NCBI GenBank assembly: GCA_963931865.1
Contig: OZ007511.1
Location: 11,111,396-11,175,395 of the forward strand
Source of the DNA: Axinella damicornis
Lineage: Eukaryota; Porifera; Demospongiae; Axinellida; Axinellidae
Length of the DNA: 64,000 nucleotides
Direction: 5' to 3'
Part shown: one piece after another, positions 4,710-62,190 of the stretch
Layout of the letters: each line of letters starts with the position of its first letter
Position numbering within the stretch: position 1 is the first letter of the stretch
Program-made: the position numbers and the translations under genes
Notes under the pieces: model-generated
Databases searched by the model: none
Seen by the model: the letters and a program-made list of their open reading frames with translations, nothing else
What the model was told of the DNA's origin: nothing

Positions 4710-4854
4710 AACAGAGAGCACTGCAAGGGCACAATATCACCAAACCCTCAATTTTGCACAGACAAGGACCGTTACAGTACTAAATACGATGGGAATAGCA
4801 AATGATTGTCTGTTGGTTGACTTGGAGCTGTATAATTTACTCTCATTCAAATAG

Positions 4855-5668
4855 ATGCACTGCAAAACCGTTATTTGGAGAAGACTACCATGACAAGTTT
4901 GACCCTCAGGCTTTTCTGCAGATGAATTGGCCAGGCGATCCTCCAGGTCTAGATCGGCTCTTCGCACTAAACAGTTGCACACATTGTACCAGTGTTAAAA
5001 GTCAACTGATGAACAGGAACAGCTCAAGATACTTGACATTGGAACTGGGCCTGTCATTGCATATACCATCAGTGCCGCACCCTACGCATCTGAGATTGTT
5101 CTCTCTGAGTATACTAAGGCAAACCGCAAAGCACTGTTGCAGTGGTTGAAATATGATCCAGAGGCTTACAATTGGATTCCCTATTTCAAACATGTTGTGG
5201 TTGATCTCGAGGGCAAGAGTGAGGAAGAAGTGCCAGTACGAATGGAGCTAGTCCGCAAAGTCATCAAAGCTGTTGTGCCATGTGACGTTAACAGTGATCC
5301 ACCAATCCCTACAGAGTATGTGGATGAATATGATATTGTCACATCCTTTCTGTGCCTGCTATGTGCTTGCGCCACAGAGGAAGATTATGCAGCTGCCCTT
5401 GTCAGGCTGCACACTCTCTTAAAGCCTGGAGGTACGATTGTGTTGTTCTCAGTTGAAAGAAAACCATCTACACCAACCCCATCTATACCCTGTAGGGTCC
5501 CAGAAATTCTTTGACTTGAACCTCTCAAGAGAATTCATATCCAAGTCACTGGAACGTGCAGGTTTCTCTGATGTAAATGTGATGTCATTTACAGACCATG
5601 CATGGCTGGCAGGACCAACTTCCAGAGATTTTTGCCTTTAATTTTTATACAGCTCATAAGATGTTCTA
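4855..5668 (+). pseudogene. NNMT/PNMT/TEMT-type methyltransferase pseudogene, second copy
   Basis: The match starts after an AG acceptor-like site (CAAATAG) with the shared peptide KPLFGEDYHDKFDPQAFLQM. It runs almost to the normal C terminus (EFISKSLERAGFSDV), closest to the copies at 14362 and 36122. A frameshift near 4945-5010 moves motif I (LKILDIGTGPVIAYTI) out of frame. A second lies near 5485 at the PYPVGS segment, and a 4-bp insertion near 5600 shifts the tail. The 3' flank keeps the AAGCTCCTGAACAGAATGAT segment of the paralogs. At least three lesions make a functional product unlikely. Confidence 0.85.
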
Positions 5669-11857: not shown

Positions 11858-12339
11858 GATGCAGAAAGATATGTAGCTATTGGTTTTCAGTAACTGTGGA
11901 TTGCAGCCTTACATGCAGACTATAGCTATATATAGGCATCTATCACGATTTGCCTGGAGCAGATAGGAGATATAGCTACAGAGGGAGGACACGATCACGT
12001 GATGCACTTTTAATTGCGCTCGTAAGTATAGGCTGTACACTTGCACTGCGAAGTCGATTTAGTTGGGGCGCTATCTTCCAATTTTGAAGATTTTTGCAGT
12101 CGCAATACACTGATACTCAGTAGAGCTTTTACAGATCGAGCGCCCTGGTGTAGTCCACTGCTATGACCGAGTATTATTATTATACATTTTATATGCGTTC
12201 AAGAATGCTAGGAATGGTTACTAACCACGTGATTTTGTCAAGACATGATGTTGTGTCCTCCCTCCTCAAACCAACTCTGATGTAACTGGGTAGTATAATT
12301 ACTGCCAGCAGCATACGTGTGTAATATTCTCTTATTCAG
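11858..12339 (+). repeat. Conserved 5' block of methyltransferase gene A
   Basis: About 480 bp here is nearly identical to 20336-20814 upstream of gene C, up to and including the splice acceptor. It contains two CACGTG E-box cores (GATCACGTGATG, ACCACGTGATTT) and a GTAAGTAT donor-like site. Because it ends at the acceptor of the main exon, it should hold intron and perhaps promoter and first exon, but no convincing ATG-to-donor first exon is seen. An inverted fragment lies at 9100-9356. Confidence 0.6.
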
Positions 12340-13156
12340 ATCTACTACAAAGCCTTTATTTGGAGAAGAATACTCTGACAAGTTTGACCCTCAGGTGTAT
12401 CTGCGAATGTATTACACTGATAACTCTGACCCATTTCGGCTATTTCTTATGAAACAGTTGCACGATTTCTACCAGTCTTACGATTCAACTGCGTCAAAAC
12501 TCAAGATACTTGACATCGGCGCTGGGCCTGTCATTGCCTACACCATCAGTGCTGCACCCTATGCATCTGAGATTGTTCTCTCTGAGTATACCGAGGCAAA
12601 CCGCAATACTCTGTTAAAGTGGCTGAACAATGACCCTGAGGCTCACAACTGGACCCCCTTCTTCAGGTACATTGTGGTTGATCTCGAGAGCAAGAGCGAG
12701 GAAAAAGTGCCAGTTCGAGCAGAACTCGTACGTAAAGTTGTCAAAGCTGTTGTGCCGTGCGATGTTAACAGTGATCCACCAATTCCAGCACAGTATGTGG
12801 ATCAGTACGATATCATTACAGCTTTTCTTGTCCTTGCAGCAGCTTGTGCCACACAGGAAGATTACGTAGCTGCATTGGTTAGACTGCATGCCCTCCTTAA
12901 ACCTGGAGGTGCTATTGTGCTGTACGCATCTGAAATGAATGAACCACCTACACAACCTCCATTCTCATATCCCGTTGGGTCTCACAACTTCTTTGACTTA
13001 CAGCTTCCAAGAGGATCCATATCCACGTTGCTGGAACAGGCTGGCTTCTGTGATGTGAAGATAAGACCACTAGCAAGGCAGGGCTTACAGGTTGCAGAAG
13101 ACGAATACCCACCTTACGTCAGCTTCAACTTTGTAACTGCTTACAAGATGAATTAA
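12340..13156 (+). CDS. NNMT/PNMT/TEMT-family methyltransferase, copy A (main exon)
   Basis: The product is a class I SAM-dependent methyltransferase of the nicotinamide/phenylethanolamine/thioether N-methyltransferase family, which methylates small cytosolic amines or thioethers. The exon encodes about 272 residues. KPLFGEEYSDKFDPQVYL matches the family's N-terminal substrate-binding region. LKILDIGAGPVIAYTI is SAM motif I, followed by EIVLSEYTEANRNTLLKWL, then CDVNSDPPIP and the LHALLKPGGAIVLY post-motif. No in-frame ATG precedes KPLFG; upstream of it is an acceptor (TTATTCAG, then phase 2), so about 8-20 N-terminal residues lie in an unidentified first exon. An AATAAA follows at about 13226. 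The substrate cannot be told from sequence. Confidence 0.85.
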
Positions 13157-14361
13157 CTAAGCTCCTAACAATAATTATCACCAATATTGATGTCATGATC
13201 AGTTTGTATAGCTGCATGCTTGGAAAAATAAATATTGTGGAATGCTATAGTATAAATTTCACTAGGTCTATTAACACAGAGTGGTTATCGCGATTAGCAA
13301 CACAATACATACTTCAAGTACTTCACTTCCAAGGAAGAGGTTACTAATTTTTACTACATGTAGTGCTGTAGTCTTCAGTTAACAGGGCACATGCCACACC
13401 ATGCTACTTATAAACAGCGTCTGTGCATGACAATGTCATTGCACAATGTAAGCTACTAAATTGTCTAGCTAGTAAAACATGCATGATCGATGGTCCTATA
13501 CTCAGGGGTCTCGGTCCACTGCTGCTGCCTAACTACTGTCTCCAGCCAGTGGCAGGCTACATCCTGCAGTGTCTTGTTGGGAAATGACAATGGACGCTGG
13601 TGTCCATGGGAAGCTAAATTCAGGTAGACCCCGCCGTTGCAACCTTGAACATAGCTCTGCACGTACTACATCTTCCTTTGAGAGGAATTTGTAAGAGTCT
13701 AGCATGTATAGGATGCCTACCTGGTGGCGCAGGAGTAATAACTAATGGGCATATAATATAATCACTTGTAGGAATTCGAAGGTTGTCAAGGGTGTAGTCT
13801 GAGACTAATATATTTATCCACAGGTGATTATTTGAGGGCTGGATAGATCTCCATAGCATGCGTACCTGCTTAGGCTTCATAGACCATACTCCATTGCTAT
13901 GGTAAATGGTCTAAGTAAGATAGAGCCTGGAAGATAACCCATGCACATGAACATCATTGGGACGCTCGGCCAGTGTGTCATAATTGTTCTCGGGCTGTGC
14001 CCTCATCCAATTAACACTGCCCTCGGTTCCCAGAGTGTTTTTATGGCTCACATCAGGGCTCTATCCTTATACCATGGAATATGGAAACTATTTGATGTAC
14101 CACAGGTGATATATTATACCCATTACTCCCATTCCCAGGGGTTGACATGCACAGCTGTTGTATGTATACAGTGCATGAGTAATTTAGTATACATTGATAG
14201 ATGAATTACTGAGAGAGTACTGCATGGGAAATATCACCAAAACCTAACGCAGGTAAACAGACAAAGACTGCATGCACTGTCTGGTATCAGCTATAGCTAG
14301 GTATTGTAGCGGAGTGTCTGTTGATTGACTTGCAGCTGTATAATTCACTCTCATTTAATAG
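13157..14361. other. Spacer and presumed 5' intron between methyltransferases A and B
   Basis: The first part keeps the 3' flank shared by the family (CTAAGCTCCTAACAATAATTAT). The last 130 bp matches the sequence upstream of the pseudogene at 4855 (GTCTGTTGATTGACTTGCAG, then the TAATAG acceptor). No other gene is supported. Confidence 0.5.
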
Positions 14362-15169
14362 ATGCACTGGAAAACCCTTATTTGGAAAGGACTACCATGA
14401 CAAGTTTGACCCTCAGGCTTATCTGCAGATGTATTGGCCAGGCAACCCTCCACTATTTCGGCTCTTTGTACTGAAACAGTTGCACACATTGTACCAGTCT
14501 TACAAGTCAACAAGTGATGAACAGCTCAAGATACTTGACATTGGCGCTGGGCCTGTCATTGCCTACACCATCAGTGCTGCACCCTATGCATCTGAGGTCA
14601 TTCTCTCTGAGTACACTGAATCAAACCGCAAGGCACTGTTGCAGTGGCTGAAAAATGATTCAAAGTCTCACGATTGGATTCCCTATTTCAAACATGTTGT
14701 GGTTGATCTCGAGGGCAAGAGTGAGGAAGAAGTGCCAGTACGAATGGAGCTAGTCCGCAAAGTCATCAAAGCTGTTGTGCCTTGTGACGTTAACAGTGAT
14801 CCACCAATCCCTGCAGAGTATGTGGGGGAGTACGATATTGTCACATCCTTTCTGTGCCTGGTGTGTGCTTGCGCCACAGAGGAAGATTATGCAGCTGCCC
14901 TTGTCAGGCTGCACACTCTCTTAAAGCCTGGAGGTACAATTGTGCTGTTCTCAGTTGAAAGGAAACCATCCACACCAACTGCAGCTTCATACCCTGTAGG
15001 GTCTCATGAATTCTTTGACTTGCACCTCTCAAGAGAATTCATATCCAAGTCACTGGAATGTGCTGGTTTCTCTGATGTAACTGTGATGTCACTTACCGAC
15101 CATGGCTTGCAGGACCAACTTCCAGAGATTTTTGCCTTCAATTTTTATACAGCTCGTAAGAGATTGTAA
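14362..15169 (+). CDS. NNMT/PNMT/TEMT-family methyltransferase, copy B (main exon)
   Basis: Same family as copy A, but a distinct subgroup shared with the 4855 pseudogene and copy D. It reads KPLFGKDYHDKFDPQAYL at the N terminus and QLKILDIGAGPVIAYTI at motif I. Its middle carries EEEVPVRMELVRKVIKAVVP and CDVNSDPPIPAEYV, then LHTLLKPGGTIVLFSVE, and it ends in EIFAFNFYTARKRL. The exon is open from the acceptor (CATTTAATAG) to the stop, about 268 residues. The start codon must be in an upstream exon because the in-frame upstream starts are TTG-type only. Its 3' flank retains the TGGCTGAACTAAGCTCCTGA segment of the paralogs. Confidence 0.85.
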
Positions 15170-20335: not shown

Positions 20336-20814
20336 GATGCAGAAAGATATGTAGCTATTGGTTTTCAGTAACTGTGGATTGCAGCCTTACATGCAGACTA
20401 CAGCTATATATGGGCATCTATCACGATTTGCCTGGAGCAGATAGGAGATATACAGAGGGAGGACACGATCACGTGATGCACTTTTAATTGCGAATCAGTG
20501 AGCTCGTAAGTATTGGCTGTACACTTGCACTGCGAAGTCGATTTAGTTGGGGCGCTATCTTCCAATTTTGAAGATTTTTGCAGTCGCAGTACACTGATAC
20601 TCAGTAGAGCTTTTACAGATCGAGCGCCCTGGTGTAGTCCACTGCTATGACTGAGTATACATTTTATATGCGTTCAAGAATGCTAGGAATGGTAACTAAC
20701 CACGTGATTTTGTCAAGACATGACGTTGTGTCCTCCCTCCTCAAACCAACTCTGATGTAACTGGGTAGTATAATTACTGCCAGCAGCATACGTGTGTAAT
20801 ATTCTCTTATTCAG
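20336..20814 (+). repeat. Conserved 5' block of methyltransferase gene C
   Basis: Nearly identical to 11858-12339, ending at the same TTATTCAG acceptor. The main differences are small indels, such as a 9-bp TAT-repeat difference near 12170/20655. It probably contains the first intron and promoter, but no first exon is recognised. Confidence 0.6.
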
Positions 20815-21646
20815 ATCTACTACAAAGCCTTTATTTGGAGATGAATACTCGGACAAGTTTGACCCTCAGGTGTATCTGCAAATGTATTACACCGATAACT
20901 CTGACCCATTTCGGCTATTTCTTATGAAACAGTTACACGATTTCTACCAGTCTTACGATTCAACTGCATCAAAACTCAAGATACTTGACATCGGCACTGG
21001 GCCTGTCATTGCCTACACCATCAGTGCTGCACCCTATGCATCTGAGATCGTTCTCTCTGAGTATACCGAGGCAAACCGCGATACACTGTTAAAGTGGCTG
21101 AAAAATGACCCTAAGGTTCACAACTGGACTCCCTACTTCAGGCACATTGTGGTTGATCTTGAGGGCGAGAGTGAGGAAAAAGTGCCAGTTCGAGCAGAAC
21201 TCGTGCGTAAAGTCATCAAAGCTGTTGTGCCATGCGACGTTAACAGTGATCCACCAATTCCAGCACAGTATGTGGATCAGTATGATATCATTACATCTTT
21301 TCTTGTCCTTGGATCCGCTTGTGCCACACAGGAAGATTACGTGGCTGCATTGGTTAGGCTGCATGCCCTCCTTAAACCTGGAGGTACTATTGTGCTGTAT
21401 GCATCTGAAATGAATGAAACACCTGCACAACCTAGATTCTCGTATGATTCGTATCGCGTTGGGTCTCACAACTTCTTTTACTTACAGCTTCCAAGAGGAT
21501 CCATATCCACGTTGCTGGAACAGGCTGGCTTCTGTGATGTGAAGATAAGACCAATAGCAAGGCAGGGCTTACAGGCAGCAGATGACGAATACCCACCTTA
21601 CGCCAGCTTCAACTTTGTAACTGCTTACAAGTCTGAGATGAATTAA
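20815..21646 (+). CDS. NNMT/PNMT/TEMT-family methyltransferase, copy C (main exon)
   Basis: The closest paralog is copy A: same KPLFGDEYSDKFDPQVYL start, motif I LKILDIGTGPVIAYTI, CDVNSDPPIPAQYVDQYD and LHALLKPGGTIVLYASE. The exon is open for about 276 residues from the acceptor to the stop. Against copy A it has a small insertion (RFSYDSYRVGSHNF) and two extra residues near the C terminus. GAGP in motif I has become GTGP. As in copy A, no ATG precedes KPLFG, so the start codon is in an upstream exon. The foldback with heat-shock-like motifs lies upstream. Confidence 0.85.
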
Positions 21647-35505: not shown

Positions 35506-36121
35506 TCAATCAAATTCCTTCGCTCTTGTGTGCAAATGGCTTATTAGCTAGCTAAAAGATAATGTGGCCGCGACGTGCAGTGTCGACCTGGCTGTTTATA
35601 GCAGAAAGCCTATAGCGGCTACTAATGGGCTGGGCACTTCCTGAGGTAGCCCAGAACCCAATGAGCAAAGTGCCTGGAGCCTCCATGAGGACCATTTATT
35701 TGCAAGTACAGGTAATAAGTGTATCATGGGTTACTCCATACGGCTAACTTAGTACCCTAAGTGTAGATTTATGTATTACACCCCTAAACCTTTGGTACCA
35801 TTTTGAAAAGGACACCAGAGTTGCCGTGGAGCTGTCGGGTACACTAGCCTTGTTCTTGTTCCCAGCCCCCGTCCAAAAACACTTCCGTGTTATGAATCTG
35901 TCACTGCATGCATGCACATGTCATCAAACACGTGCTACAGTAGGACACCTTGTGCTGTAGTGGGTGGGTACATGCAGTTCAACAAAGGACAGAACCTAAG
36001 CAGTGCCAGGTAGCAGCATGCCCTGGTTATGAAAATTGAATAAGGCTGGGGCCTGTTAGCACACTTAATGTATCATTTTTGTGAGCTCAAATTTGTAGTC
36101 TTACTTAACTTGTTCAAATAG
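35506..36121. other. Spacer and presumed 5' intron of methyltransferase D
   Basis: No other gene is seen. The sequence runs into the acceptor GTTCAAATAG of the next exon. The expected short first exon is not identified. Confidence 0.4.
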
Positions 36122-36926
36122 ATCCACTGCAAAGCTCTACTTTGGAGAAGACTACCATGATAAGTTTGAGACTCAGGCTTATCTTCAGACATATAGCCCC
36201 AGTGATCCTCCCCTATTTCGGCTCTTTGTACTGAAACAATTGCACACATTGTACCAGTCTTACAAGTCAAGCAATGAACAGCTCAAGATACTTGACATTG
36301 GCGCTGGGCCTGTCATTGTCCACACCATCAGTGCTGCACCCTATGCATCTGCGATCGTTCTCTCTGAGTACACCGAATCAAACCGCAAGGCCCTGCTGCA
36401 GTGGCTGAAAAATGATCCAAAGTCTCACAATTGGATTCCCTATTTCAAACATGTTGTGGTTGATCTCGAGGGCAAGAGTGAGGAAGAAGTGCCAGTACGA
36501 ATGGAGCTAGTCCGCAAAGTCATCAAAGCTGTTGTGCCATGTGACGTTAACAGCGATCCACCAATCCCTGCAGAGTATGTGGATGAGTACGATATTGTCA
36601 CATCGTTTCTGTGCCTGCTAGATGCTTGCGCCACAGAGGAAGATTATGATGCTGCATTGGTCAGGCTGTGTGCTCTCGTAAAGCCTGGAGGTACAATTGT
36701 GCTGTACACACTCGAAGATGAACCGTCTGTACCAATGCCAGTTTCATACCCCGTAGGTTCTCACAGGTTCGCTTACCTGCATCTCTCCAGGGAATTCATA
36801 TCCAAGTCACTGGAACGTGCTGGTTTCTCTGATGTGAAGTTGATGTCACTTACCGACCATGGCTTGCAGGACCAACTTCCAGAGATTTTTGCCTTCAATT
36901 TTTATACAGCTCGTAAGAGGATGTAA
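36122..36926 (+). CDS. NNMT/PNMT/TEMT-family methyltransferase, copy D (main exon)
   Basis: Same family and subgroup as copy B. The exon starts after GTTCAAATAG with KLYFGEDYHDKFETQAYLQT, then QLKILDIGAGPVIVHTISAA (motif I), VPCDVNSDPPIPAEYVDEYD, LCALVKPGGTIVLYTLEDEP and the C-terminal EIFAFNFYTARKRM. The exon is open from acceptor to stop, about 267 residues. ATP-like changes against copy B include KLYF for KPLF and HTI for YTI next to the SAM site, so it has diverged more than A and C have from each other. The start codon is in a missing upstream exon. The 3' segment TAAACTAAGCTCCTGAACAG is conserved. Confidence 0.85.
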
Positions 36927-38633
36927 TCGATCGGTTGATGATACCACTCACTTTAAATGTCTTTCACTGGCTAAACTAAGCTCCTGAACAGAATGGTCGG
37001 GCTAATTGTATAGTAGTTAGCACAATACACCACGCGTGTTACGCATTATTTGTTTATACTTTTACTGTCATGATAGCGTGATACAATAATTATTGTAATG
37101 TTTATGTAGTTTGTATATCGTAGTGAGGTATAGCCCTAGAACTGATATTAAATTTTTATCAAGCATGCATGTGGATTTGCATGCATGCCTGCACCCCTTG
37201 GAGTTCGATAGTGCTTTGTGAGCTTGTATATAGGCAGGTGGGGAACATGTTTGACGCTCTCATAGACAATAATAATAATTAGCTAATGTCACTTGCTACA
37301 GTTATTCCATTTTGGCTGATTTGTAGGTTTGTACGTACTGTTGAATCTCGCATGCAGAGAGATCGCTCCTGTATAACCTATGCATGCAGGTATAAACACA
37401 CTACACACTTTCCCTGCTTCATGTTGTGAGTGTAGATGGTGGCTCCCGGCCGCTAGCGCTATCACTGTAGCAAGATCCCGAATGGAGATGAGCAAGTGGA
37501 GAATGGAAACCTGGAACCAGACACAGCCAGTAGCTCCAGTCCAGACTGATGTGCATGCATCTCAGATGAGCAAACAGACCAAAGGAACAAATGGCCTGAT
37601 AAAGTTTTACCTTACCTAACACAAGCTCAATCGGATAAACACCACAATGGAAGCAATCTTAACAACTCATTGTCTTAGAAGTTTATGCATATATATAACG
37701 CCTAGTATAAATTCTTATGACCGCATTTGCCTTCATTAATGATCATTGGTTGGAATAAGAGTTAATTGGTTCCTTTAATTGTGATAACCGCAGGCAATTG
37801 TATCTTGAATCCACGTCACTTTGCCTGTTTCTTGCTGCTCCCATGCACTCATTCCTCTTGTGCTGCGCTAGTGAGCTGATTGCTAGGGGACCCCCTGCAA
37901 TAGCAGAGACAGCAGACATGTACAATGTCTTATATCATTGCTGTTATGCAGCTGCAGAAGTGCATTTTAGTGCATCATGTAGAAACCATAAAGTGCCACC
38001 ATAGTGGGCCTTGTGGTGTTGTGGTGTTGCTATGCAGACAGGTGGCCACAGACTGAGAGGAGAGGGTGCTGCATGCAGGAACCTCGTCCATGGGACCTCC
38101 AAGAGACCAGTTCCATTCCAAGAAATGGGACAAGAAGCGGGACATGGGTAGAACGGAGGACGATCAGGTGTTTCGGAGGAGACACTTAATTGGAAGAAAA
38201 ATTGTATAGTTTTAGCTTATTGAATGTCTTAGGGACAGTTTATATTAGCTTTGGGGGTGTACATTATAACCCGACTGTGTATGCACGTGACCTTTGACCT
38301 CTACCGACTTGTGGAAAGACAGGCTATGCAAACAACTTTAGCTTCTCTCCTACACTGAATAAGGCATGGGTCCAGTGAATAAGGACACACTACATGTACT
38401 ACCATATTTTTCTCCCCATTTTCCATTTTCCGTTTCCGTTTTCCATTTCGGTCGTTTCCGCGAAGTCCACATGCCCCATGCATATGGTGTGGATCTAATG
38501 TAACGCATAGAGTGTGACTTATAATTCATTGATCTAGTGTAGAGTTTATTCATGGTGCAAACCATATATGGTCAATACGGCTGACTGGACACAGCTATTG
38601 TACATATTATATTATATCAATCAATCAGACTAC
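36927..38633. other. Noncoding spacer
   Basis: No gene is supported in 1.7 kb. About 37697-37764 matches the short dispersed repeat at 27773-27860. Confidence 0.45.
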
Positions 38634-38745
38634 TAGCCTCATTCCCAGGCCTACTCCGTTCTTGGTTTGCGTTGACAACACACAAGATTGATTGAGTGTA
38701 TGCAAACTGAAGAGCGAAAGATGAGTAAGCCTGGGAATGAGGCTA
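38634..38745. repeat. TAGCCTC-family element without visible duplication
   Basis: TAGCCTCATTCCCAGGC at the left and GCCTGGGAATGAGGCTA at the right are exact inverted ends around about 78 bp of unrelated sequence. The flanks (TCAGACTAC and TGGGTCCAC) match in only five of nine positions. Confidence 0.65.
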
Positions 38746-38941
38746 TGGGTCCACCACAGCCAGAGGTGAGTTTACTAAGGCATCTGAGGGCCATCAAACA
38801 CAGCCTTAACGTCCTCAGCATTAGATGCCGAAATGAAATGATTGGCCATCCATCTTCCTGGATCTCGAGCATTATTATATAATTATTATAGCATAATATA
38901 AACATAGCCATTAACAACGTAGCATACTAACTTTATAGTAA

Positions 38942-41025
38942 CTAATCTGCAGCAGCTGTCTGTTGGATAATACTATCTAAATGATTTTCAAGCACAGCCT
39001 TAACATCGTCAGTGTTAGTTGTGGCAATGAAATGGTAGCCCAGTACCCTGGAGGAACTATCGCCAAGACACCGTGACTCGAACATTGCACGTAGGAACTG
39101 TTTTACATCGTCCAGATTGTGTGGGTCACCAGTAAAGTCCGGGAAATGATCCTTGATGCTGCTGTGCCTTATCTTCTCCATTAGGTGGTCGGCCTTGGTG
39201 AAAAGTACCACGAAGGAAGTACGTGCGAAGTGTCTGTTGTTCACAATGGCCTGAAATAAGTTGGCACCCTCGTCCAGTCGATTTGTCTTAGTATCCTCAG
39301 AAAGCGTTTGATCAAATCCATTGGAGGGTACGAAAAAAAATATTGCTGAGACATCATCAAAACAGTGGATCCATTTTCTCCTCTCTGATCGGGCACCACC
39401 CACATCAACAACTCTGAAAGTCGTGTTCTTGATGCGGAAATGATTCTCAATGATTCCAGTAGTTTGACGCCGGCAATAAAGGATATCCTCCACAGACGTG
39501 GTGTAATCCTGCAAAATTTTAAAAAAATCTACTATGATTATTTGTACTATAGTGCGTAGGAGGTTCAAAGGCACCGGCTGTGGTTTACATTCCGAAGCCA
39601 TGCAGCCGAGCAACAGCTGTGGGTTTATAGAAATTAGAGCAGGATGATTCAGCGTTTATGGAAATTAGACCACAGCTCAGCGCATTCTGAAGTGTTGGAG
39701 CGTGCAAGGATCTCTAATTCAGGTAGCTATAGTACAAGCCAGTTAGACTATGCCCTTTTGTGGTTTATGGGAAATCCCACTGGAGGCTGTTCACTTGGCT
39801 GGGCCTCGGTGTCTAAATAAACAGCCTAAATAAACAGCCTCTCGTGGTTATTTCCCATAAACCACTCAAGGCCATAGTCTAACTATACTAGCCTGAGAAT
39901 GCAGGACATTGTGGGGCAGCGAGTACATGCAGGTGCTGAATGTGCATGGAGCAGTTGCATGTGAATGTCATCAGAATGTGAGTCTTACAGAGAGCATAGC
40001 ACAACTTTAATAAGGACACAGATCACACCAGAAGTTATGACACTAAAAATATACTCGTGCATGCACTTCACAGCGTTGAAGCAGTCTGGCAGGTAGGTCC
40101 AGGAGCGGTCTCTGTCTCCGTTGTTGCCACCGAGGATGACTTCCTCGTTCTCTGCTAATGCCAGATCTGTCATGACTGGTCACAGTGAGTTTAGTGCTAC
40201 CGTGTGCAGGGCAGTCAATTTCCGAGTCTGGCGATACTGAAGCAGTCTAACAGGCACATCACTGCATGCAGGACATGCGATGGCTTGAAGCGCTCTCCCC
40301 GTCTTCATGAAATGCTTTAGCCACTCACCGCCCCACTATAGTCTCCATCCTTGCAAGGCCTTGCTGTTCATAGTTCGCGTCTCAGTTGGACAGTCTCCGC
40401 AACATCATGAGCAGGAAGTGAACTCAGTTTGGAAATAACGCAGATGCAAGAACACGCAAAATACGAAGTGATTTACGGCACGACGTACGATATATATATA
40501 TATATATATATTACACTCCTGGTAGGGGAAAAATTGTGCCGCGTAAATAAATAATTAATATAATATAATGTTTGAGTACTTAGGATTGGCCTACATAGAT
40601 TCTGACTACACCGCCGTGATCGCTATCAAGCACTGACCTGAATGATAAAAGTTGGTGCTGAAACTCACCTTGGTGGCTGAGATATGAGCGCTTTTGTCTC
40701 GCCGTTGGCCGCCATTGCTCGAGCGCTGTCTTCGACTTCCTGTGGCAGTACCGTTCTCAGGAAGGCACACGAAGACCACACGGCCGTGATCGCTGTCGTT
40801 CACTGACACTTACATGCCAAAACTCACCGTGCTGGCTAAGTTGTAAGTGCTGTAATAATGTCTTGTCTTCCTTTTGGCTGCCATTGCTCGCGATCGACTG
40901 AGCGTGGTAGACTCTACGTGGTTGCCACGTGGCATGTGCGTTAATTGGAACGAATTGCAATAATTAGCTTGCGCTACGGCGAGTCGCGGGGTTGCAATGG
41001 CTACCAGGAGTGCGGTTGCCCCTCG

Positions 41026-41065
<40 letters not shown>

Positions 41066-42388
41066 GAAAATTTGCAGCAAACTCGTCTAAGTGGGGCTCG
41101 CTCAGGCTCGCCCCAATGACCCACTCACTCAGGAATGTTACGGCTGGGACCTTCTCCACAGCTGCTCATGTAGTAACCACAATATCATAGATGATAAGAG
41201 AATTGCTTAGAACCAAGATATAACCACCAATGCCTATGGTTCTGAAAGTTGACTACTATGCTGTAGTTCACGTGCACGTTTCAATTACGTAACTGATGAT
41301 TGTGATCGCATCCATTGTAAATCGCACAGAGGTAACTCCCTTTGTACATTCGTTAGCTGACTAAACTACTAGTCCCACTGTGCTCATGCCTGTTACAGTA
41401 GCTTCCTAATTGTCACTTACTGTACTTTCCTGTCAAATTATTGTGTGGTTGGTATTATAATAAATTTACCCGATACCTGTATGGGAGGGCAATGTGGCGA
41501 GGTATTGCACCCTTGTGTAGTATTTTCCCTCACCTTCAGCTCAGGAAAACACATACACACTCTTGCAATATACCTCACCATATTGCTCTCCCACCTGGTG
41601 ACAATAAATTATAGTGGATGCTGGCAAGCCTTTGAACCACCATACACACAGTATATAGATTATAGTGTTCCCAGTACTCTCAGGTACCTTTGCTCCAATT
41701 CTATTGAGATGATTCAGAGAGTAGACAAGAGATTCCTGTAGTGGATAAAGTAGGAGACAGATGACAACCCATCACATAGCATATAAATTATACATGCATT
41801 ACAAGCTGCACATGGCTGTCTCTGATCCACTTTCGTTGTAAGGCCGGACTATTATGCAGAGAATGGTGAAAGCCACATACGTATCTTAGAATTGTACTCA
41901 GCAATTGTACTAACCATATCACTACCACTGAATTTGCTGGTGTGTCGGAGCGTTTCCTGGATGCTCTCATCTTCCCACAGTGACTTCAGAGCCGGAGCTA
42001 AGCGGACAAAGGACTCCAAGTCTAGATTGTACTCATCTACGTCCAAAATCGTTTCCTTGTGCTCCTTGTTCTTGGGGTTTGACAGTGGGGTTTCCAGAGC
42101 TTTGATCAAGATCTTCATTGTTTCTACTGTGCGTCGGTAGACAACTTCCCGATGGGAGAGCCGCGATTCATCAGAGAACCAGCCTGCAGTCTCATAAAGG
42201 AAATACATCTGCTTAAGGAATGTGGATTTGCCTGATTCGCCCTGGCCTAGCAAGAGGACTTTTCTTGACCTTTCGTATTCCTTTGCTTCAGACCTCAGCA
42301 GTTTGTCAATCTCTTTGCGCCTTTGAATGGCTTCCCTTTCCATTTTTTTGTTTGATCTCCATTCCTTCCACCATGTCGACAATCGTCC
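38942..42388 (-). CDS. Divergent heterotrimeric G-protein alpha subunit, probably the C-terminal part of a kinase-Gα fusion
   Basis: Exons on the minus strand: 42388-41881, a probable small exon 40151-40072, and 39508-38942 (stop TAG). VLLLGQGESGKSTFLKQM is the Gα P-loop. LWEDESIQETLR is the helical-domain signature. TSVEDILYCRRQTTGI is switch I with the catalytic Arg, and VVDVGGARSERRKWIHCFDD is switch II with Ala where nearly all Gα have the catalytic Gln. The NKxD guanine-specificity motif reads TKAD and the TCAT motif reads IATTNT, so nucleotide binding or hydrolysis is probably altered. The 42388 exon opens at an AG acceptor with GRLSTWWKEW and no ATG; the first ATG is 15 codons in. Between the LPDCFNA and DYTTSVED segments about ten residues of helix αF seem missing, so a small exon may be unplaced. 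Confidence 0.75.
39741..39884. repeat. Foldback repeat, GTGGTTTATGGGAAAT family, in a Gα intron
   Basis: AGTTAGACTATGCCCTTTTG and GTGGTTTATGGGAAAT at the left are inverted at the right (ATTTCCCATAAACCAC and CATAGTCTAACT), with AGGCTGTT/AACAGCCT nearer the centre. It lies in the intron between the last two Gα exons and is related to 45210-45370. Confidence 0.65.
40511..41026 (-). repeat. ATGGCG-repeat, inverted copy in an AT microsatellite
   Basis: Minus-strand copy of the 5798-7497 repeats, with the same ACGAGGGGCAACCGCACTCC start (right end), two ATGGCG half-units with GGTGAGT donors, and the TTACGCGGCACAATTTTTCC tail with ACACTCCTGGTAG at the left end. It interrupts an (AT)n microsatellite, with AT repeats on both sides, which suggests insertion into a TA-rich target. 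It lies in the long Gα intron. Confidence 0.7.
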
Positions 42389-43019
42389 CTATTAGTAAAT
42401 GTGCCATAAATTGGAATGCTCAGTTGTAATGCAGACAGCCATCTACATGGCATATTAACCACCAGTTGCAAGCAGTGAAAACGACTACATTTTTGTAGTG
42501 ATACGTAATTGCTGCTGACTTACGTACATGTCTGTAATATAAGTAGGGATGGGCGACATATTGTATATCGAGGAGCCCACAATAATCATATTGTGAATTA
42601 TCGCCATATCGTTTTCACATTATTAGTGGTGTTTTATTTACAGAAGTCCGTATGCATGCACAGTAGCGAATTAGTGTATGCACACAAACTATGACAACAA
42701 CAATAAACGCTTGGTTTTGTAGAAATACTAATTTGGCATGAGAAGTGCGCAAAAGCATTATCTTGATTTTGTCGAATAATGTGATATTAACACATGATAT
42801 ACCTATCGTCCACTCCTATATTATAAGCTGATGTATGTTTACTGATCTTGACTGAAAGGACTACCTTCACAAACCATATATCTGGGCTGTAGGAGCCACT
42901 ACGGCCAGTCCTGCCATGGCCGTACCAATTTTTACCATACATAAGAAAAAAATCTATTGCGTGGGTATGCACGAAAGTGCGAGCGCTCGAGCGCGAGACA
43001 GTCCGTAGTCTCGTTCCCA

Positions 43020-43170
43020 CCGGGACCTGCAATCCTCGTACATCTGAAACTTGCAGTGCAAATCACGAAGGTGCCACGAGAGCCTATCCTGATAACTGAA
43101 AAATGAAGACGAAATTTTTTTCGTGCTTTGCGCATTCTGATCGGCACTACACACTTCTATGCACTGCCTT
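43020..43170. repeat. Intronic dispersed repeat, copy 1
   Basis: AATCCTCGTACAT, GAAGGTGCCACGAGAGCC, ATCCTGATAACTGAAAA and GCACTGCCTTTGGCAG-like blocks are shared in order with 44490-44650. It lies in the intron joining the coiled-coil and Gα parts. Confidence 0.6.
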
Positions 43171-43249
43171 TGGCAGCGTGTAATTGTGCCATTATAATAT
43201 TGGCCGGACAAGTTATTTTGCTTTCTACTGCCCTGTATATTATACTAAC

Positions 43250-46200
43250 CTCAGAATCTTTAGCTGCAGGTTTAGGTTCGGGCACCACTGGAGCCCTTGT
43301 CTTCTCTGATCCACTGACTGGTGACTTCTGATCTTGGATATCATCCCGCCCCTCATTCGCCTGCTCTAGCTCACTCTTCTTTGTGACACTCTCAAGTTGA
43401 CTGAGCTGGTGCTTCCTGAGGTCAATCTGGATTTCAAGGTCTGATAGTGCTTGCTTAGCTGCTTCAACCTGTAAACATTAGTATAGGACACTATTTCACA
43501 CAAGGTATAGGACACTATTTCACACAAGGTACATACTCTTTCACGATAGTGAACTGCATACAAGGTGAACATTGGTATATAATGTGACCAACCTTAGCCA
43601 GCAACTCTTTAGCCCGGGAACCATGCTGGTGCTCTCCATTCAGTTTCTCAATGGTTCCCTTTAGCTTTTCCCTCAGAGCGTCCAGCTTTTGCTGCATACC
43701 GCAGAGTTGTGAGCTCTTGGTCTCAAGTTGGCTCTTTACATCAGACAGCTCTTCCTATATGATTTTAGAGTAAGTACTAACCATTATACATTCTTGAGGG
43801 TTTACAATCTCTACCCATAATTATACCACAGTTTGTTGATGCAAAGCATTCCACACACAATTGTTATTTTAACAAAAGTCTTACTACTTAGCTGTATACA
43901 TAGAGCGAATGTTATGGGGCAGGATTTGTCGGAGGTTACCCATGAGCCAGACCAACATTGAGCGCAGTGGCGGATCTAAGGTAGGGCCTGGTAGGGCCTA
44001 GGCCCTACCAACTGGTGCAAGTGCCCTACCAACTGGAGCCCTACCATCAGTGGAGTAGCCAAGCCGGCCTGGTAGGGCAACGCCCTACCAATATTAGGCT
44101 ATAGGCCCGGGCAATGAGAATGGCAACTAAAGTGCAGAGCACCCAGCCAGTGTGAATGCCACCGAGCCAGGCAAACAGCAAACGTACGGAAACAGTACCT
44201 CCGGCGTGAGGCGATGGCCGGCCTAGGTGCGGCACCTAATATTTCTATCTACGTTCTGTATAACCACGCGACTAGCTATGAATGTCTGGCAAGTGAGGCA
44301 ACTGACGGTATTCAAATGCAGCAAGAGTAACAGTGAGTCTGGTTCTGATGATAATCAGTCAGATGATGATGAGCAGCCAGTAAAAAAAAACTCGTGTCAG
44401 TTGTGAAGAGACATCCGGAGCGACTCTTCTCAGCGGTCCACCAGCGACTACAGGTGCTCCACCGGTTCAGGCGAACAAAACGTCTCTCTGCAGCATCGAT
44501 CCTCGTACATATGGAACTTGAAGTGAAAAGCATGAAGGTGCCACGAGAGCCCATCCTGATAACTGAAAAGTTAAGGTGAAATTTTTTTTCCACGCTTCGC
44601 GCGGACTGATCAGCACTCCACGCCTCTATGCATTGCCTTTGGCAGTGTGCATAAACAGTGCCCTACAAATTCAATATTCCTGGCTATGCCACTGAGACCT
44701 TACAAGTTAGTTTTTGCACTGCCATGAGCCTTTTAATATTGTTTTGTAGATGAGGATCCCACACTGCACAGTAATAAATTATTCCAGAAACGGGCGGACT
44801 AGGGTAGTTTGCATTTGGTGAACATTCCAGCCACTATATACATCCTCGATGCAAGAAAGCGTGAACTGTCTACCGGTTCGATGGATGATGGCAACAACAA
44901 TAACAGAGACCACTCGTGGACCTACCTATCCATTTGCTAGAACAATAGGCGAACCATGAACAGTCTACCTGGTGACAACAAAGACGGGGACCGCTTGTGG
45001 AGTAGTGGACCTACTGCCATGCATGGGTGGCGTACCTGCTAGACTGCTCCAGCTAACCGACTCACAGTTCTGGTGATGTGAACAAGTGTCATAATTTGTT
45101 TGGCCTACTATGCTCATTGCATTCTGATGGTAGTCATGTGCATGCACTCGCTCAGGCTCGCCCTCCAATGCCCTCTATATAGTAGCTAAGCAGTGTGTGA
45201 ATAAGTTATAGTTATACTACCAGCTGCTGTGGTTTATCAGGAATACACGAGGCTGTTATTCAATTAGAGGCTGTTATTCAATTAGAGGCCGAGGCGCAGC
45301 CGAGGCTTCTAGCTAATTGAATAACAGCCGAGTGTGTTCCTGATAAACCACAGCAGCTGGTAGTACAACTGGCTTGTACTACAGTGGCTTCTAAGTGCAC
45401 TTCCTAAAGTGGCTTCTGTACACTAATTTGTGCTGACAAGGGTGTATGTAGTTAGACGACGGGTGTATGGGTGTATGGTAGTTAGACGACGGGTAGCAGA
45501 TTATGCTATATAAACTGTGGTCGGCACCTTTCAAGTGCGTCATCACTGTAGTACAAATTAGCTATAGTTAACCCTTATCTTTAGACAGGTGGATGTTGTG
45601 GGAGGATAATTATATGTCTATCACAGTAACTGTTATTCTAACTACTAGCATAGTAGTGGCATGTCCAAACAACTGTGAATTCTATTTGAAATGACTGCAA
45701 AGTGCATGTGTTGTGAATAACAGGAGAAGCAACAGGAAGGCATTTGTACTATACCTGGTCACAGTATCTTACCTGCAGCTGCTTAAGTTGAGCCTGTGCA
45801 CCAATTTCTGCCTCTTCCAGGGTTTGAATCATCTCCAGTTTGTTCACATGCTCATACGGATCTTCAATTTGGGACTTCATCTCATCTAGCTGCTGCAGAG
45901 CTTCTCTGGCAGAGGGGCGCTTTCTGGGGTCGTTCTGTAGGCACCGTGTGATCAGATGGACTAGAGAATGTTCATCACCCAACATCTCCTTTAGCTGACC
46001 AATGAATCGAGCACGGCGTTGGACTTCTGAACGACCCATGATCATTCCCGGGTTGTCTGGGTCCATACAAGTGGGAGCAACAGGTAGGGGCAACTCTTGG
46101 ATACCAGTGAAGAGAGAGAGCTCTCCAAATGCAAACATGTCAATTGCAGCATTGTACTTGGGGTTTTCCTCGAGCGCTTCAGGAGGCATGTAGGCCAGCG

Positions 46201-46998
46201 TGCCTGGGGTCTAAAAGCATGACTAACTGTAAAATGACTGTTTATAATTTCGAAGTGGATGTTGGTCCAGCAGGAAGTAGGGCAATGGGTTAGGGTATAT
46301 TAGGGCCAGGGCCAGTTCTAAATGCATGTGCGTTTCCGGTACCTATACCTAAAGTATGTACTTCCTTCCGGACCAATATACACGTCGTTATAATTTACAA
46401 CAATCTTTTCCCTCACCTGAGTCATAGTAGCTGCTTGCTGGCCTGGGCGAAGGTTTAGGATACGAGCTACTCCAAGGTCAGCTACTTTGGCAACCATTGA
46501 AGAATTGAGCAGTATATTCCTCGATGTCAAATCTCTGTGGATTATCGGAGGAGAGTGATTGTGAAGGTAGACCAGACCACATGCAACATCACGGAGGATA
46601 GAGCGTTTCAGGTAGAGGGGTATGTTCGGTTTGCTCTCGAGCAGCTCATCGAGGCTGGTCAAGAGGTACTCCATGATAAGAACTGGCAAATTCGAGTCCC
46701 GGAGGAAGCAGATTCCTAAGAACTGTACGATGTGAGGATGACGCAGCCCTGACATCAGCTGGCATTCGTCCACAAACTTCTGGGTGATATCCTGCACCCC
46801 TGCATTGCCCGCTTCAACGAGAGCGTCATGGAGCTTCTTTCCAGCACACATAAGTCCGTCCACCTCCAGTTCCTCCACGCCGCCATAGGAGCCGACTCCA
46901 AGCTGCCTGCCAGTTGGACGAACATTTTCGATGACGAACCGCTGAAGCTGTGGAGATTCATGAAAACTTTGCCGCACTGCACGGCGCCGAACGGCCAT
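43250..46998 (-). CDS. TKL-type protein kinase with C-terminal coiled coil; probable N-terminal part of a kinase-Gα fusion
   Basis: Four minus-strand exons with GT-AG borders, all in phase 0: 46998-46417, 46210-45773, 43754-43593 and 43468-43250 (467 residues). The ATG opens MAVRRRAVRQSFHESPQ. The kinase domain has GVGSYGGV (Gly loop), CAGKKLH (ATP Lys), HRDLTSRNILL (catalytic loop), ADLGVAR (DLG in place of DFG, common in TKL kinases), AYMPPEA and an RKRPSAREAL end, so it should be active on Ser/Thr (or Tyr). EEAEIGAQAQLKQLQ, KSQLETKSSQLCGMQQKLDA and VEAAKQALSDLEIQIDLRKH form a coiled coil. A Pro/Ser/Glu linker (KTRAPVVPEPKPAAKDSE) then meets a GAG/GTTAGT donor in phase 0; the next phase-0 acceptor downstream opens the Gα exon at 42388. 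If that splice is not used, the frame would end about 27 codons later. Confidence 0.85.
43975..44110. repeat. CCCTACCA-rich intronic repeat
   Basis: Multiple GCCCTACCAA/TGGTAGGGC words in both orientations form short palindromes in the intron between the kinase and coiled-coil exons. Confidence 0.55.
44490..44650. repeat. Intronic dispersed repeat, copy 2
   Basis: Second copy of 43020-43170 in the same orientation, about 1.45 kb away, in the preceding intron. Confidence 0.6.
45210..45370. repeat. Foldback repeat, GTGGTTTATCAGGAA family, in a kinase intron
   Basis: TACTACCAGCTGCTGTGG and TTTATCAGGAA are inverted at the right (TTCCTGATAAA, CCACAGCAGCTGGTAGTA), with a tandem GAGGCTGTTATTCAATTA unit in the left arm. 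GTTGTACTACC with AACTGGCTTGTACT beyond the right arm matches, inverted, the left flank of the 39741 repeat. Both belong to one family. Confidence 0.65.
46251..46387. mobile_element. Short MULE-like MITE in a kinase intron, exact 9-bp duplication
   Basis: Inverted copy of the 33277 element: CGAAGTGGATGTTGGTCC at the left, GGACCAATATACACGTCG at the right. TTATAATTT is duplicated exactly (46242-46250 and 46388-46396). It occupies most of the 206-bp intron between the two kinase exons, so it may have enlarged a very short intron. Confidence 0.85.
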
Positions 46999-47296
46999 CG
47001 CAAGTTGGATGCGCAGAGCGGGGGTAAACTTTTAGCCTCGTTCACAGGCCATCGCCTAGCTTTTCGTAATTGACTCTATTCAGACTTCTGACCGGAGTAA
47101 CTAGTCCAGTCGTCGGACCAGCGGCCCAGATATGAGTAGCTAATTAACGCCCAGATAATGACTGAAGACCCTTCCGTGGTGGCGCTTCGAAGCTTCCGGC
47201 AGGGCATGCGCGACTGCGTGATTTTTGTGACCGAATAATAGCCGCGCCCTGTCAAATTACCATCGGTCAATAGTGTTTGACCTGATCCTGCCAGAG
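46999..47296. promoter_or_regulatory. Bidirectional promoter region between kinase and KMO-like gene
   Basis: Only about 298 bp separate the two divergent start codons. The region is GC-richer than the surroundings and also contains a TAGCCTCGTTCACAGGC fragment (47033-47050) of the TAGCCTC family near the kinase start. Shared regulation is inferred from geometry only. Confidence 0.45.
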
Positions 47297-48669
47297 ATGA
47301 CTGAACGCAGAGGCGGGATTAAAAAAGAGACCTCAGTGGCAGTCATTGGCGGTGGCTTGGTGGGTCCCCTCCACGCCATTCTGCTGGCCCAGAAGGGGCT
47401 TCTTGTGGATCTGTACGAGGCAAGGCATGATATTCGACAACTTCAGCATGTGGGCGGTCGCAACATCAACATAAGTCTAAGTGGGCGTGGGAGAGAAGCT
47501 CTGAGAGCTGCAGGATTAGAAGACGCTATGATCGAGAGTGGCGTTCCAATGATTGGCTTAATGATCCACGTCCCATCTGGGGAAACGCATGTAACTTACA
47601 GCCCTTTGGAAAGAAGGGCCAATTTATATACTCCGTTAATCGGTGGAAGTTGAATGAACTGCTACTCACAAAAGCAGAAGCCAAGTATGGAGTCTCAGTT
47701 CATTTTGAGCATAAATTGGCTCGTGCAAACCTTGAAGAGAAGACTTTAGTCTTTCAAGTGGGACAGGGAAAGGTTCAAGAGAAAATGGTGAAAACTGATT
47801 TTGTTTTTGGTTGTGATGGTGCGCACTCGACTGTACGACGGCAGATGATGCGATGGGGGAGGCTCAACTATAGCCAAGAGTACATTGATCATGGCTACAG
47901 AGAACTGACTATGCCACCTACTGCAAGTGGAGATTTTGCCCTTGCTACCAACTACCTTCATACCTGGCCTCGAGGGGAATTCATGATGGTTGCCCTCCCC
48001 AACTATGATCGCACGTTCACCCTGACTCTCTTCATGCCGTTTAAGGTCTTTGAGTCAATTGAAACAGAGGAGGATCTCCTCGTGTTCTTCAATAAACACT
48101 TCCCAGACGTGTTTGATAAGATAGGAGCGGAACGTCTGGTTCAGGATTATTTCCGCAACCCGACCGGAAAAATTATTTCCATCAAGTGCTATCCATACTT
48201 CATGGCTGGAAGTACAGTAATCCTTGGTGATGCAGCCCATGCTATGGCTCCCTTCTACGGTCAGGGGATGAATGCCGGATTTGAGGACTGCCTCATCTTC
48301 TACAACCTCCTGGAGCAGTTTGATAATGACCTTCAGAAAGCAGCTACCAAGTATTCTGAAACACGCTGGAAGGATGCAAATGCCATTGCCGATCTCTCCA
48401 TGAATCGCTATCTATTCATGCGTGCACATGTCAACCGTCCGATCTTCCTTCTGCGCACGTTTGTAAAGCATCTTGAAAATATCTTGCATGCCCTCTTCCC
48501 AAGAGCTTTCATCCCCCTGGAGTCCATGCTGGCATTCACAAGACTCCCGTACCAGACTGTCCATGAGCGAAATGAAAGGCAGATAAGCATCGTCAACAAG
48601 ACACTATTGTTCTTGACCATCTCATCACTAAGTGTATTGGGTTACGCTATTTTTCGTTTTGTTTTGTAG
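47297..48669 (+). CDS. Kynurenine 3-monooxygenase-like FAD enzyme, copy 1, with one frameshift
   Basis: KMO hydroxylates L-kynurenine to 3-hydroxykynurenine on the mitochondrial outer membrane, using FAD and NADPH. The ATG at 47297 is followed by the Rossmann FAD motif VAVIGGGLVGPLHAILLAQKG, the DLYEARHDIR segment, FGCDGAHSTVRRQMM, then GDAAHAMAPFYGQGMNAGFE (second FAD site) and a C-terminal hydrophobic anchor (LLFLTISSLSVLGYAIFRFV). The total is about 457 residues, near the family's usual 450-490. Near 47590 the frame shifts by two bases: the copy has 5 extra bases next to the PFGKKGQ segment compared with copy 2. The same spot contains GT...AG 11 bp apart, too short for an intron. No introns are seen. 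It could be a recent pseudogene or an assembly indel. Confidence 0.8.
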
Positions 48670-60385: not shown

Positions 60386-60805
60386 ACTCACTGGTTCCAC
60401 CTGAACCAGTGAAATCGGATTAAAATTCCACCTGGACCAGTGAACTGCATGAACCAGTGAACTGTAACTGAACCAGTGAACTACAAGAAGTAGCTAGCTA
60501 GTACTAGTGGACCTACCAGAACTGACAATGTAGCTAAGCGATGAGCATTCCCGGGAACAGTAGCTATGACATCAAGAATCACCCTTCAAGTTGTCCTATA
60601 GCAATAGCTACCAGCAGTGCGTTTTTCACTCATGCAATAGAATACAGCATAAATTGGTCAGAGTTAACTTGTCTGCTATTATCCCAACTTCATGAGAAGT
60701 TTTACATTTAGCTGAGTACAATCCTCTCATTAATTCCCCATCAATTTCTAATCAGCGGTGTTTGACCTGAAAAAAAAAATCGGCCCGAATCGCGAGCTGG
60801 TGGGG
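60386..60805. other. Spacer 5' of KMO copy 2
   Basis: ACCAGTGAA is repeated several times (about 60395-60482). GTGTTTGACCTG directly upstream of the start is shared with KMO copy 1 (47273), so the duplication includes some 5' flank. Confidence 0.5.
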
Positions 60806-62190
60806 ATGGCTGAATGCGGAGGAGCAAATAGGAAAAAGGCCTCTGTGGCAGTGATTGGCGGTGGCTTAGTAGGTCCCATCCAGGCCATTCTGCTGGCCCA
60901 GAAGGGGCTTACTGTGGATCTGTACGAGGCAAGGCGAGACATTCGACGATTTCAGCCTGTTGGCGGACGTAGCATCAACCTAGAAATAAACGGGCGTGGG
61001 AGAGATACTCTGAGAGCTGTAGGATTGGAAGACATTGTGTTTGAGAGTGCCATTCCTATGAAGGGCTTAATGATTCATTCCCTGTCAGGGAAAATGTTTG
61101 CACAGCCCTTTGGGAGGAAGGACCAATGTGTATACTCCATTAACCGCCTGAAGTTGAATGAACTGCTACTCACCAAAGCAGAAGCCAAGTATGGAGTCTC
61201 AGTTCATTTTGAACATAAACTGACTCGTGCAAACCTTGAAGAGAAGACGTTAGTCTTTCAGGTGGGAAAGGAGAATGCTGAAGAGAAGATCATCAAAACC
61301 GATTTCATTTTTGGTTGTGATGGTGCGCACTCGACTGTATGGCGGCAGATGATGCGATGGGGGAGGCTCAACTATAGCCAAGAGTACGTTGATCATGGCT
61401 ACAAGGAGCTGACTGTGCCACTTACTGCAAGTGGAGATTTTGCCCTTGCTACCAACTACCTTCATACCTGGCCTCGAGGGGAATTCATGATGGTTGCCCT
61501 CCCCAACTATATATGATCACACGTTCACCCTGACTCTCTTCATGCCGTTTAAGGTCTTTGAGTCAATTGAAACAGAGGAAGATCTCCTTGTGTTCTTCAC
61601 GAAGCACTTCTCAGATGTGATTGATAAGATTGGAGCAGATCATTTGTTTCAGGATTATTTCCACAACCCGACTGGAACACTTATTTCTGTCAAGAGCAAT
61701 CCGCACTTCATGGCTGGAAGTACAGTAATCTTGGGTGATGCAGCCCATGCTATGGTTCCCTTCTGTGGCCAGGGGATGAATGCCGGATTTGAGGACTGCC
61801 TCACATTCTACAACCTCCTGGAGCAGTTTGATAATGACCTTCAGAAAGCAGCTACCAAGTATTCTGAAATGCGCTGGAAGGATTCATATGCCATTGCCGA
61901 TCTTTCCCTGAACAACTAGCTACGTAGAAATGCGTGCACATGCCAACGGTTGGATCTCCCTTCTGCGTATGCAACTGGATAATATCTTGTATGCCCTCTT
62001 CCCAAGAGCCTTCATGCCCATGGAGACCATGCTGGCATTCACAAGACTCCCGTACCACACCATTCTTAAACGAAATCAAAGGCAGAGAAGGGTGATTAAC
62101 AAGGCACTATTGTTTTTAACCATCTTATCTCTGAGTGTGTTAGGATGTGCTACTTTTTGTTTAATTCTGCGCATTTGCCGGTGGTTGTAG
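60806..62190 (+). pseudogene. Kynurenine 3-monooxygenase-like, copy 2, frameshifted
   Basis: Starts MAECGGANRKKASVAVIGGG and matches copy 1 throughout: FAD motif VAVIGGGLVGPIQAILLAQK, YSINRLKLNELLLTKAEAKY, FGCDGAHSTVWRQMMRWGRL, GDAAHAMVPFCGQGMNAGFE, and the C-terminal span LLFLTILSLSVLGCATFCLI. Compared with copy 1 it has a 4-bp insertion near 61508 (AACTATATATGATC) that stops the frame, and a second 4-bp excess near 61910 with an in-frame TAG. No introns. It is probably nonfunctional unless these are assembly errors. Confidence 0.8.

Follow-up and report, generated by a model that had tools for sequence, protein, structure and literature searches.

A TKL-type kinase gene that may continue into a probably GTPase-deficient Gα-like domain in the sponge Axinella damicornis

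Gα subunits without the glutamine of switch II are blocked in GTP hydrolysis, the kinase of LRRK2 belongs to the TKL group, and plants possess extra-large G proteins in which a Gα carries a long N-terminal extension with no kinase in it. Among the described proteins closest to the gene considered here, those of the Roco/LRRK2 type have a Ras-like domain and a kinase on one chain, GPCR-TKL/K receptors are found in choanoflagellates and GPCR-TK in both choanoflagellates and sponges (PMC12716839), and preGNA12 is reported to have three coding exons in several phyla (PMC5896119).

The window analysed here, a stretch of 64,000 nucleotides (C7:11111396-11175395) from the 226 Mb assembly of 120 contigs that also served as the genome searched, holds on its minus strand a locus that resembles each of these in part. 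As in Roco/LRRK2, a GTPase and a kinase, the latter in both cases probably of the TKL group, would share one chain, whereas Roc-COR precedes the kinase there and Gα follows it here; no Pfam match to Roc or COR was found in the window protein, for which only G-alpha, Pkinase, PK_Tyr_Ser-Thr and Arf are listed. The GPCR-TKL/K and GPCR-TK proteins also join a kinase to a component of the G-protein pathway, but that component is the receptor rather than Gα; plant extra-large G proteins share the N-terminally extended Gα, but without a kinase in the extension; and preGNA12 is reported to resemble the window's Gα part in having three coding exons, a likeness in exon number. Gα12/13 subunits agree with the window Gα in the P-loop, the switch-I Arg and Thr, and KWIHCF, while the window differs from them by Ala in place of the switch-II Gln, by TKAD, by the absence of both a Met-Gly/Cys start and a receptor-coupling tail, and by the probable join to a kinase.

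A preliminary description of this DNA had proposed a new single-chain architecture. The pairing of a kinase with a Gα was indeed absent among the matches inspected; a chain that unites a GTPase with a kinase is not new in principle, because Roco/LRRK2 combine both. In searches of about 5.8 billion sequences, no protein with Pkinase and Gα occurs among the 73 Gα matches listed (length 456-1450), and none with both domains among the best 120 of 2710 kinase matches or the best 120 of 3285 Gα matches; when the joined protein was compared by BLAST with these 313, none spanned both halves. Long Gα proteins were considered as candidates and rejected: P0001, P0003 and P0195 appear by eye to be tandem Gα with no kinase domain listed, and P0070, another carrier of DVGGARSE, is extended at its N-terminus, again with no kinase domain listed. 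Orthologous DNA was absent from the prokaryote genomes and viral contigs searched, and a kinase–Gα protein is not described in the literature matches listed, whose scope mostly leaves subscription papers aside.

Seven minus-strand exons (Table 1) form a single open frame of 829 codons followed by a TAG stop; all six introns are phase 0 with GT-AG borders, the length of every exon is divisible by 3, and no stop interrupts the joined frame. In the joined protein, Pfam places Pkinase at residues 30-301 (E 1.1e-36) and G-alpha at residues 490-820, the coiled coil of exons 2-4 being inferred by eye, and exons 3 and 4 used together as a genome query returned self-matches alone. On re-reading, everything that the preliminary description had stated about exons, phases and coordinates was borne out, including the coiled-coil exons that stop at a GAG/GTTAGT donor in phase 0 and the run of phase-0 introns, stop-free in translation, from the kinase start to the Gα exon; only its estimate of about 850 residues gives way to the computed 829. 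Its proposal of a kinase–coiled coil–Gα fusion stands as regards frame, domains and donor, and is weakened by a poor acceptor and by a paralogue that looks like a stand-alone gene. On balance we incline, with slightly better than even confidence, to read the locus as one gene, in whose 829-residue product a TKL-type kinase is followed by a coiled-coil-like/linker segment and, at the C-terminus, by a Gα-like domain.

Table 1. Features of the putative kinase–Gα locus and its immediate surroundings (window coordinates)
Feature	Position	Strand	Content	Basis
Exon 1	46998-46417	-	Start ATG; kinase from the N-lobe as far as the activation loop	Pfam, translation, junctions
Exon 2	46210-45773	-	Kinase C-lobe (PPEAL), then start of coiled-coil-like helix	Pfam, translation
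Exon 3	43754-43593	-	Coiled-coil-like segment	By eye
Exon 4	43468-43250	-	Coiled-coil-like segment and Pro/Lys/Glu-rich linker; end GAG/GTTAGT, phase 0	By eye
Intron 4 (disputed junction)	43249-42389	-	861 nt	
Exon 5	42388-41915	-	Gα N-terminal helix, then P-loop GQGESGKST and helical domain	Translation, Pfam
Exon 6	41735-41688	-	Gα, 16 codons	Translation
Exon 7	39508-38942	-	Gα from switch I to end; DVGGARSE, FTKAD, stop TAG at 38942	Translation
Possible small rival exons	near 42531/42524	-	Inside intron 4	
Repeat of about 150 nt, two copies	43032-43180; 44499-44649		Within the kinase–Gα locus, in intron 4 and intron 2	
Remnant of a second Gα C-terminal tail	38775-38882	-	HFISASNAEDVKAVFDGPQMP followed by a stop; just downstream of the Gα stop	

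The kinase domain retains, by reading, a Gly-rich loop, the Lys (AGKKL), HRDLTSRN and DLG, and it is probably of the TKL group, as the preliminary description held. It belongs to an expanded family: the genome contains 152 or more matches to exon 1, with the exon itself counted among them, spread over many places (C1, C5, C8, C9, C14). When 149 listed kinase matches, the window's own set aside (from a total of at least 152), were compared with all 128 Kelch matches, 31 of the 149 had a Kelch match within 10 kb downstream on the same strand, against 9 of 149 within the same distance upstream; on the opposite strand there were none downstream and one upstream. Kinase and Kelch lie within one open frame of 790 aa at C14:1427309-1429426 and within another of 853 aa at C11:12602656-12605085, and in a cluster of kinases on C9 a Kelch exon recognized by Pfam follows one kinase, with further Kelch matches in the cluster. 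Among the 14 closest kinase matches, only four have Kelch within 10 kb. Near the end of the kinase/coiled-coil frame, seven of eight close paralogues examined by eye have a donor-like GTA in phase 0, to be read as a putative donor. The intron that splits the kinase in the window is missing in 8 of the 14 closest paralogues, where the match runs across in one frame, while four change frame there and the remaining two were left out. To judge from these frames, C-terminal modules are part of the repertoire of this kinase family, and Gα would be a second kind; members in the same genome have in common with the window gene the kinase, a coiled-coil-like segment, a donor-like phase-0 end and, in some, a C-terminal module, which is Kelch there and Gα here.

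That the kinase transcript continues beyond exon 4 is indicated by codon use, scored after training on other genes of the window and with intergenic DNA outside the kinase–Gα locus as background. For the final 30 codons of exon 4 the score is 0.34, a value reached by none of 4000 sampled open background windows. It falls to -0.28 over the 30 codons that follow the donor, lower than in any of the 4000 coding windows sampled from the kinase–Gα locus; to the resolution of these windows, the coding signal stops at or near the exon-4 donor. This donor, at 43249, ranks first of 58 GTs in the intron 4 stretch. Because the coding signal ceases there, exon 4 very likely splices to some further downstream exon. 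Read-through of exon 4 to a stop at 43157 was rejected, as its codon use is non-coding and it runs into repeat DNA.

Which exon receives that splice is the point at which one gene and two must be weighed. The acceptor before exon 5 is a poor one, ranking 15th of 42 AGs and scoring below all 16 training acceptors. The preliminary description had drawn attention to an AG acceptor in phase 0 opening an exon with no ATG at its start; the sequence is as it said, and the AG argument is partly trivial, because an in-frame TAG always supplies an AG in phase 0. A possible if doubtful alternative is a pair of tandem genes, of which the kinase would end in a small exon within 43249-42389 and the Gα would have its own promoter and a small first exon there; intron 4 offers 41 AG-to-stop and 28 ATG-to-phase-0-GT stretches as raw material for it. 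Its top-scoring AG (42531) would give the kinase three codons and then a stop, and a single AATAAA lies at 42638, which says little either way since AATAAA and ATTAAA together average 0.7 per kb on the same strand. Four of the 28 ATG-to-GT stretches finish at a consensus-like donor, every time the same GTAAGT at 42523, but this scores -0.3, under all 14 training donors. By codon use no stretch of intron 4 stands out as coding: the best mean, among those listed of at least five codons, is 0.09, compared with a coding mean of about 0.17, although such stretches are too short for good judgement. Nor did intron 4 match, at protein or DNA level, the DNA examined at 20 loci, which comprised kinase paralogues as well as the C9 Gα. 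Two genes would further leave the matching phase of kinase and Gα to be accommodated. Against the fusion, a search for a processed retrocopy of the joined kinase–Gα mRNA, run exon by exon over the genome in two rounds, found none. One gene is the more economical reading, since two genes need two unseen exons and the fusion needs none.

Further evidence on how the Gα exon is entered comes from a Gα paralogue at C9:45630-47002, which is 42% identical over most of exon 5 and 57% over exon 7, and has introns at two places matching those of the window Gα (borders by eye). It opens with MKRWREWRTKRREEK, its in-frame start ATG giving MKRWREWR. Codons 7-15 of the window's exon 5, WKEWRSNKK, align without a gap on WREWRTKRR of the paralogue, and among 82,285 stop-free 9-mers from the six frames of the window no other reaches their score; given this homology, these codons must be translated now or have been so until recently. 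They lie upstream of the internal ATG at 42343 (Met16), which is the first in frame in the exon, and between the in-frame stop and codon 7 the only AG is the proposed acceptor, the TAG just before 42388. A second candidate acceptor inside exon 5 (AAG/GAA) was rejected because the conserved WK would be lost. With homologous codons 7-15, no in-frame ATG above them and one usable AG, the best account of the Gα exon is that the reading frame comes into it from an exon further upstream.

An ATG of the window at 42374 sits at the position of the paralogue's start but out of frame, with a 5-nt difference (a reading by eye), and our reading is that the Gα gene has lost the start it once had, a loss tolerated, presumably, because the frame is entered by splicing. 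It is very improbable that Met16 is instead the start of the Gα, behind an unspliced 5' leader and in a gene separate from the kinase. Codon use turns coding at Met16, and over the 15 codons before it is of non-coding type (5 of the 4000 coding windows sampled score that low), which runs counter to the homology of codons 7-15; the ATG at 42343 also has a good start context. Two ATGs likewise in good context, at 42374 and 42362, precede Met16 out of frame, in a frame of 22 codons overlapping it, and the conserved WxEWR codons would be left upstream of such a start.

The C9 paralogue itself bears on the alternative of two genes. No kinase match was found near it (in C9:25001-45600, a stretch that includes about 200 N), it lies close behind a gene that is SLC25-like by its motif, and it is apparently a stand-alone gene with its own ATG, a resemblance to a separate gene that favours two genes in the window as well. 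Its P-loop is degenerate (GESNSGRST) and ELGSARSE replaces DVGGQRSE, and the C9 Gα has perhaps lost normal nucleotide binding or hydrolysis.

The Gα part in the window is a nearly complete domain, covering positions 3-332/333 of the G-alpha profile PF00503, helical domain included, at 323.7 bits (cut-off 48.8). Its best matches among solved structures are a Gαi/13 chimera (E 9.4e-76) and Gα13 (E 3.2e-74), with Gα12 also among them. The P-loop is intact (GQGESGKST for GxGESGKST), the switch-I Arg and Thr are kept (YCRRQTTGI aligned to ARRPTKGI of Gα13; the Arg is not kept in P0199 and P0197), and so is KWIHCF of switch II, which we take to be the part facing Gβγ. In the site of the catalytic Gln of switch II, the window has Ala (DVGGARSE for DVGGQ). 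Across 193 compared Gα (the 73 listed matches and the best 120 of 3285), 180 show Gln alone there; Ala occurs in three, namely P0194 (the window ORF itself), P0199 and P0070, Val in P0197 and Ser in six. The guanine motif NKxD has become TKAD (FTKAD), the lipidation start Met-Gly/Cys is absent from exon 5, and the end SIIQQTAAAD is shorter than that of the C9 paralogue and other aligned Gα, so that the receptor-coupling tail is missing. The earlier idea of a Gα that senses nucleotide state finds no support here, given the losses of Gln, NKxD, lipidation start and receptor-coupling tail, on account of which the window Gα is unlikely to work as a cycling, GPCR-driven switch.

Losses of this kind raise the question of decay, that is, of a Gα copy with its start shifted, active-site residues lost and tail truncated, from which no functional product is made. 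We consider this quite unlikely. Catalytic Gln, tail and start are all gone, switch I has degenerated in the closely related P0197, and a Gα tail remnant (78% identical to the intact tail over 55 nt) lies downstream; on the other side, none of the three Gα exons is broken by a stop, and their borders are GT-AG. Exon 7 is identical at 141 of 188 positions to P0199, from another source, and the translated flank just above it is not alignable to P0199 (a short flank, judged by eye), which suggests that selection acts on the Gα protein of exon 7. Where the window and P0197 differ, P0199 is matched by the window at 10 sites and by P0197 at 2, with the three all unlike one another at 10 more, a weak test (p 0.04 with gap columns, 0.11 without) by which P0197, rather than the window, looks like the faster copy. 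P0197 was not found in the window's own genome; its exon 7 is identical at 168 of 188 positions, it has lost the switch-I Arg and Thr, and it has two one-residue insertions.

Returning to the favoured reading of one gene, its origin may be pictured as a kinase of the expanded family, some of whose members have a C-terminal Kelch, that began to splice into the Gα gene next to it, in which the original start codon had disappeared or no longer lay in frame. A joined transcript would run from kinase to Gα, and the coiled coil could pair two chains into a dimeric kinase. The Gα module, with P-loop, switch-I Arg/Thr and Gβγ-facing switch II kept, would be slow or non-hydrolysing because the catalytic Gln is missing, and would stay nucleotide-bound; it might dock on Gβγ or on effectors of the Gα12/13 type and so place or activate the attached kinase, a receptor-driven timer being unlikely because the tail is absent. 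A dimeric kinase with a nucleotide-bound, hydrolysis-deficient docking module would be the most likely product, an inference throughout. We hold it to be an even proposition that a GTPase-deficient Gα was taken from the GPCR pathway and now serves permanently to target or activate a TKL kinase, so that receptor, heterotrimer and downstream kinase are short-circuited into one polypeptide. If the two parts are joined, the Gα fold would prove recruitable as a built-in kinase module after the loss of GTP hydrolysis, the gene would be a natural test of the role of Gα without receptor coupling, and a route would be revealed by which an expanded kinase family gains new C-terminal domains.

As to the surroundings of the locus, a tRNA scan of the window and an Rfam scan of 38000-48000 gave no matches. 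A FAD monooxygenase-like gene, probably KMO, occurs in two plus-strand copies at 47231-48666 and 60752-61916, with FAD_binding_3 assigned by Pfam to one frame of each. The first copy starts about 300 bp from the kinase ATG in divergent orientation, and it changes frame near 47600, where it may be broken or contain an intron. Tandem NNMT/PNMT/TEMT-like methyltransferase frames lie on the plus strand at 4799-5511, 12299-13153, 14297-15166, 20774-21643 and 36099-36923, two of the five confirmed by Pfam and the others recognized by the likeness of their start.
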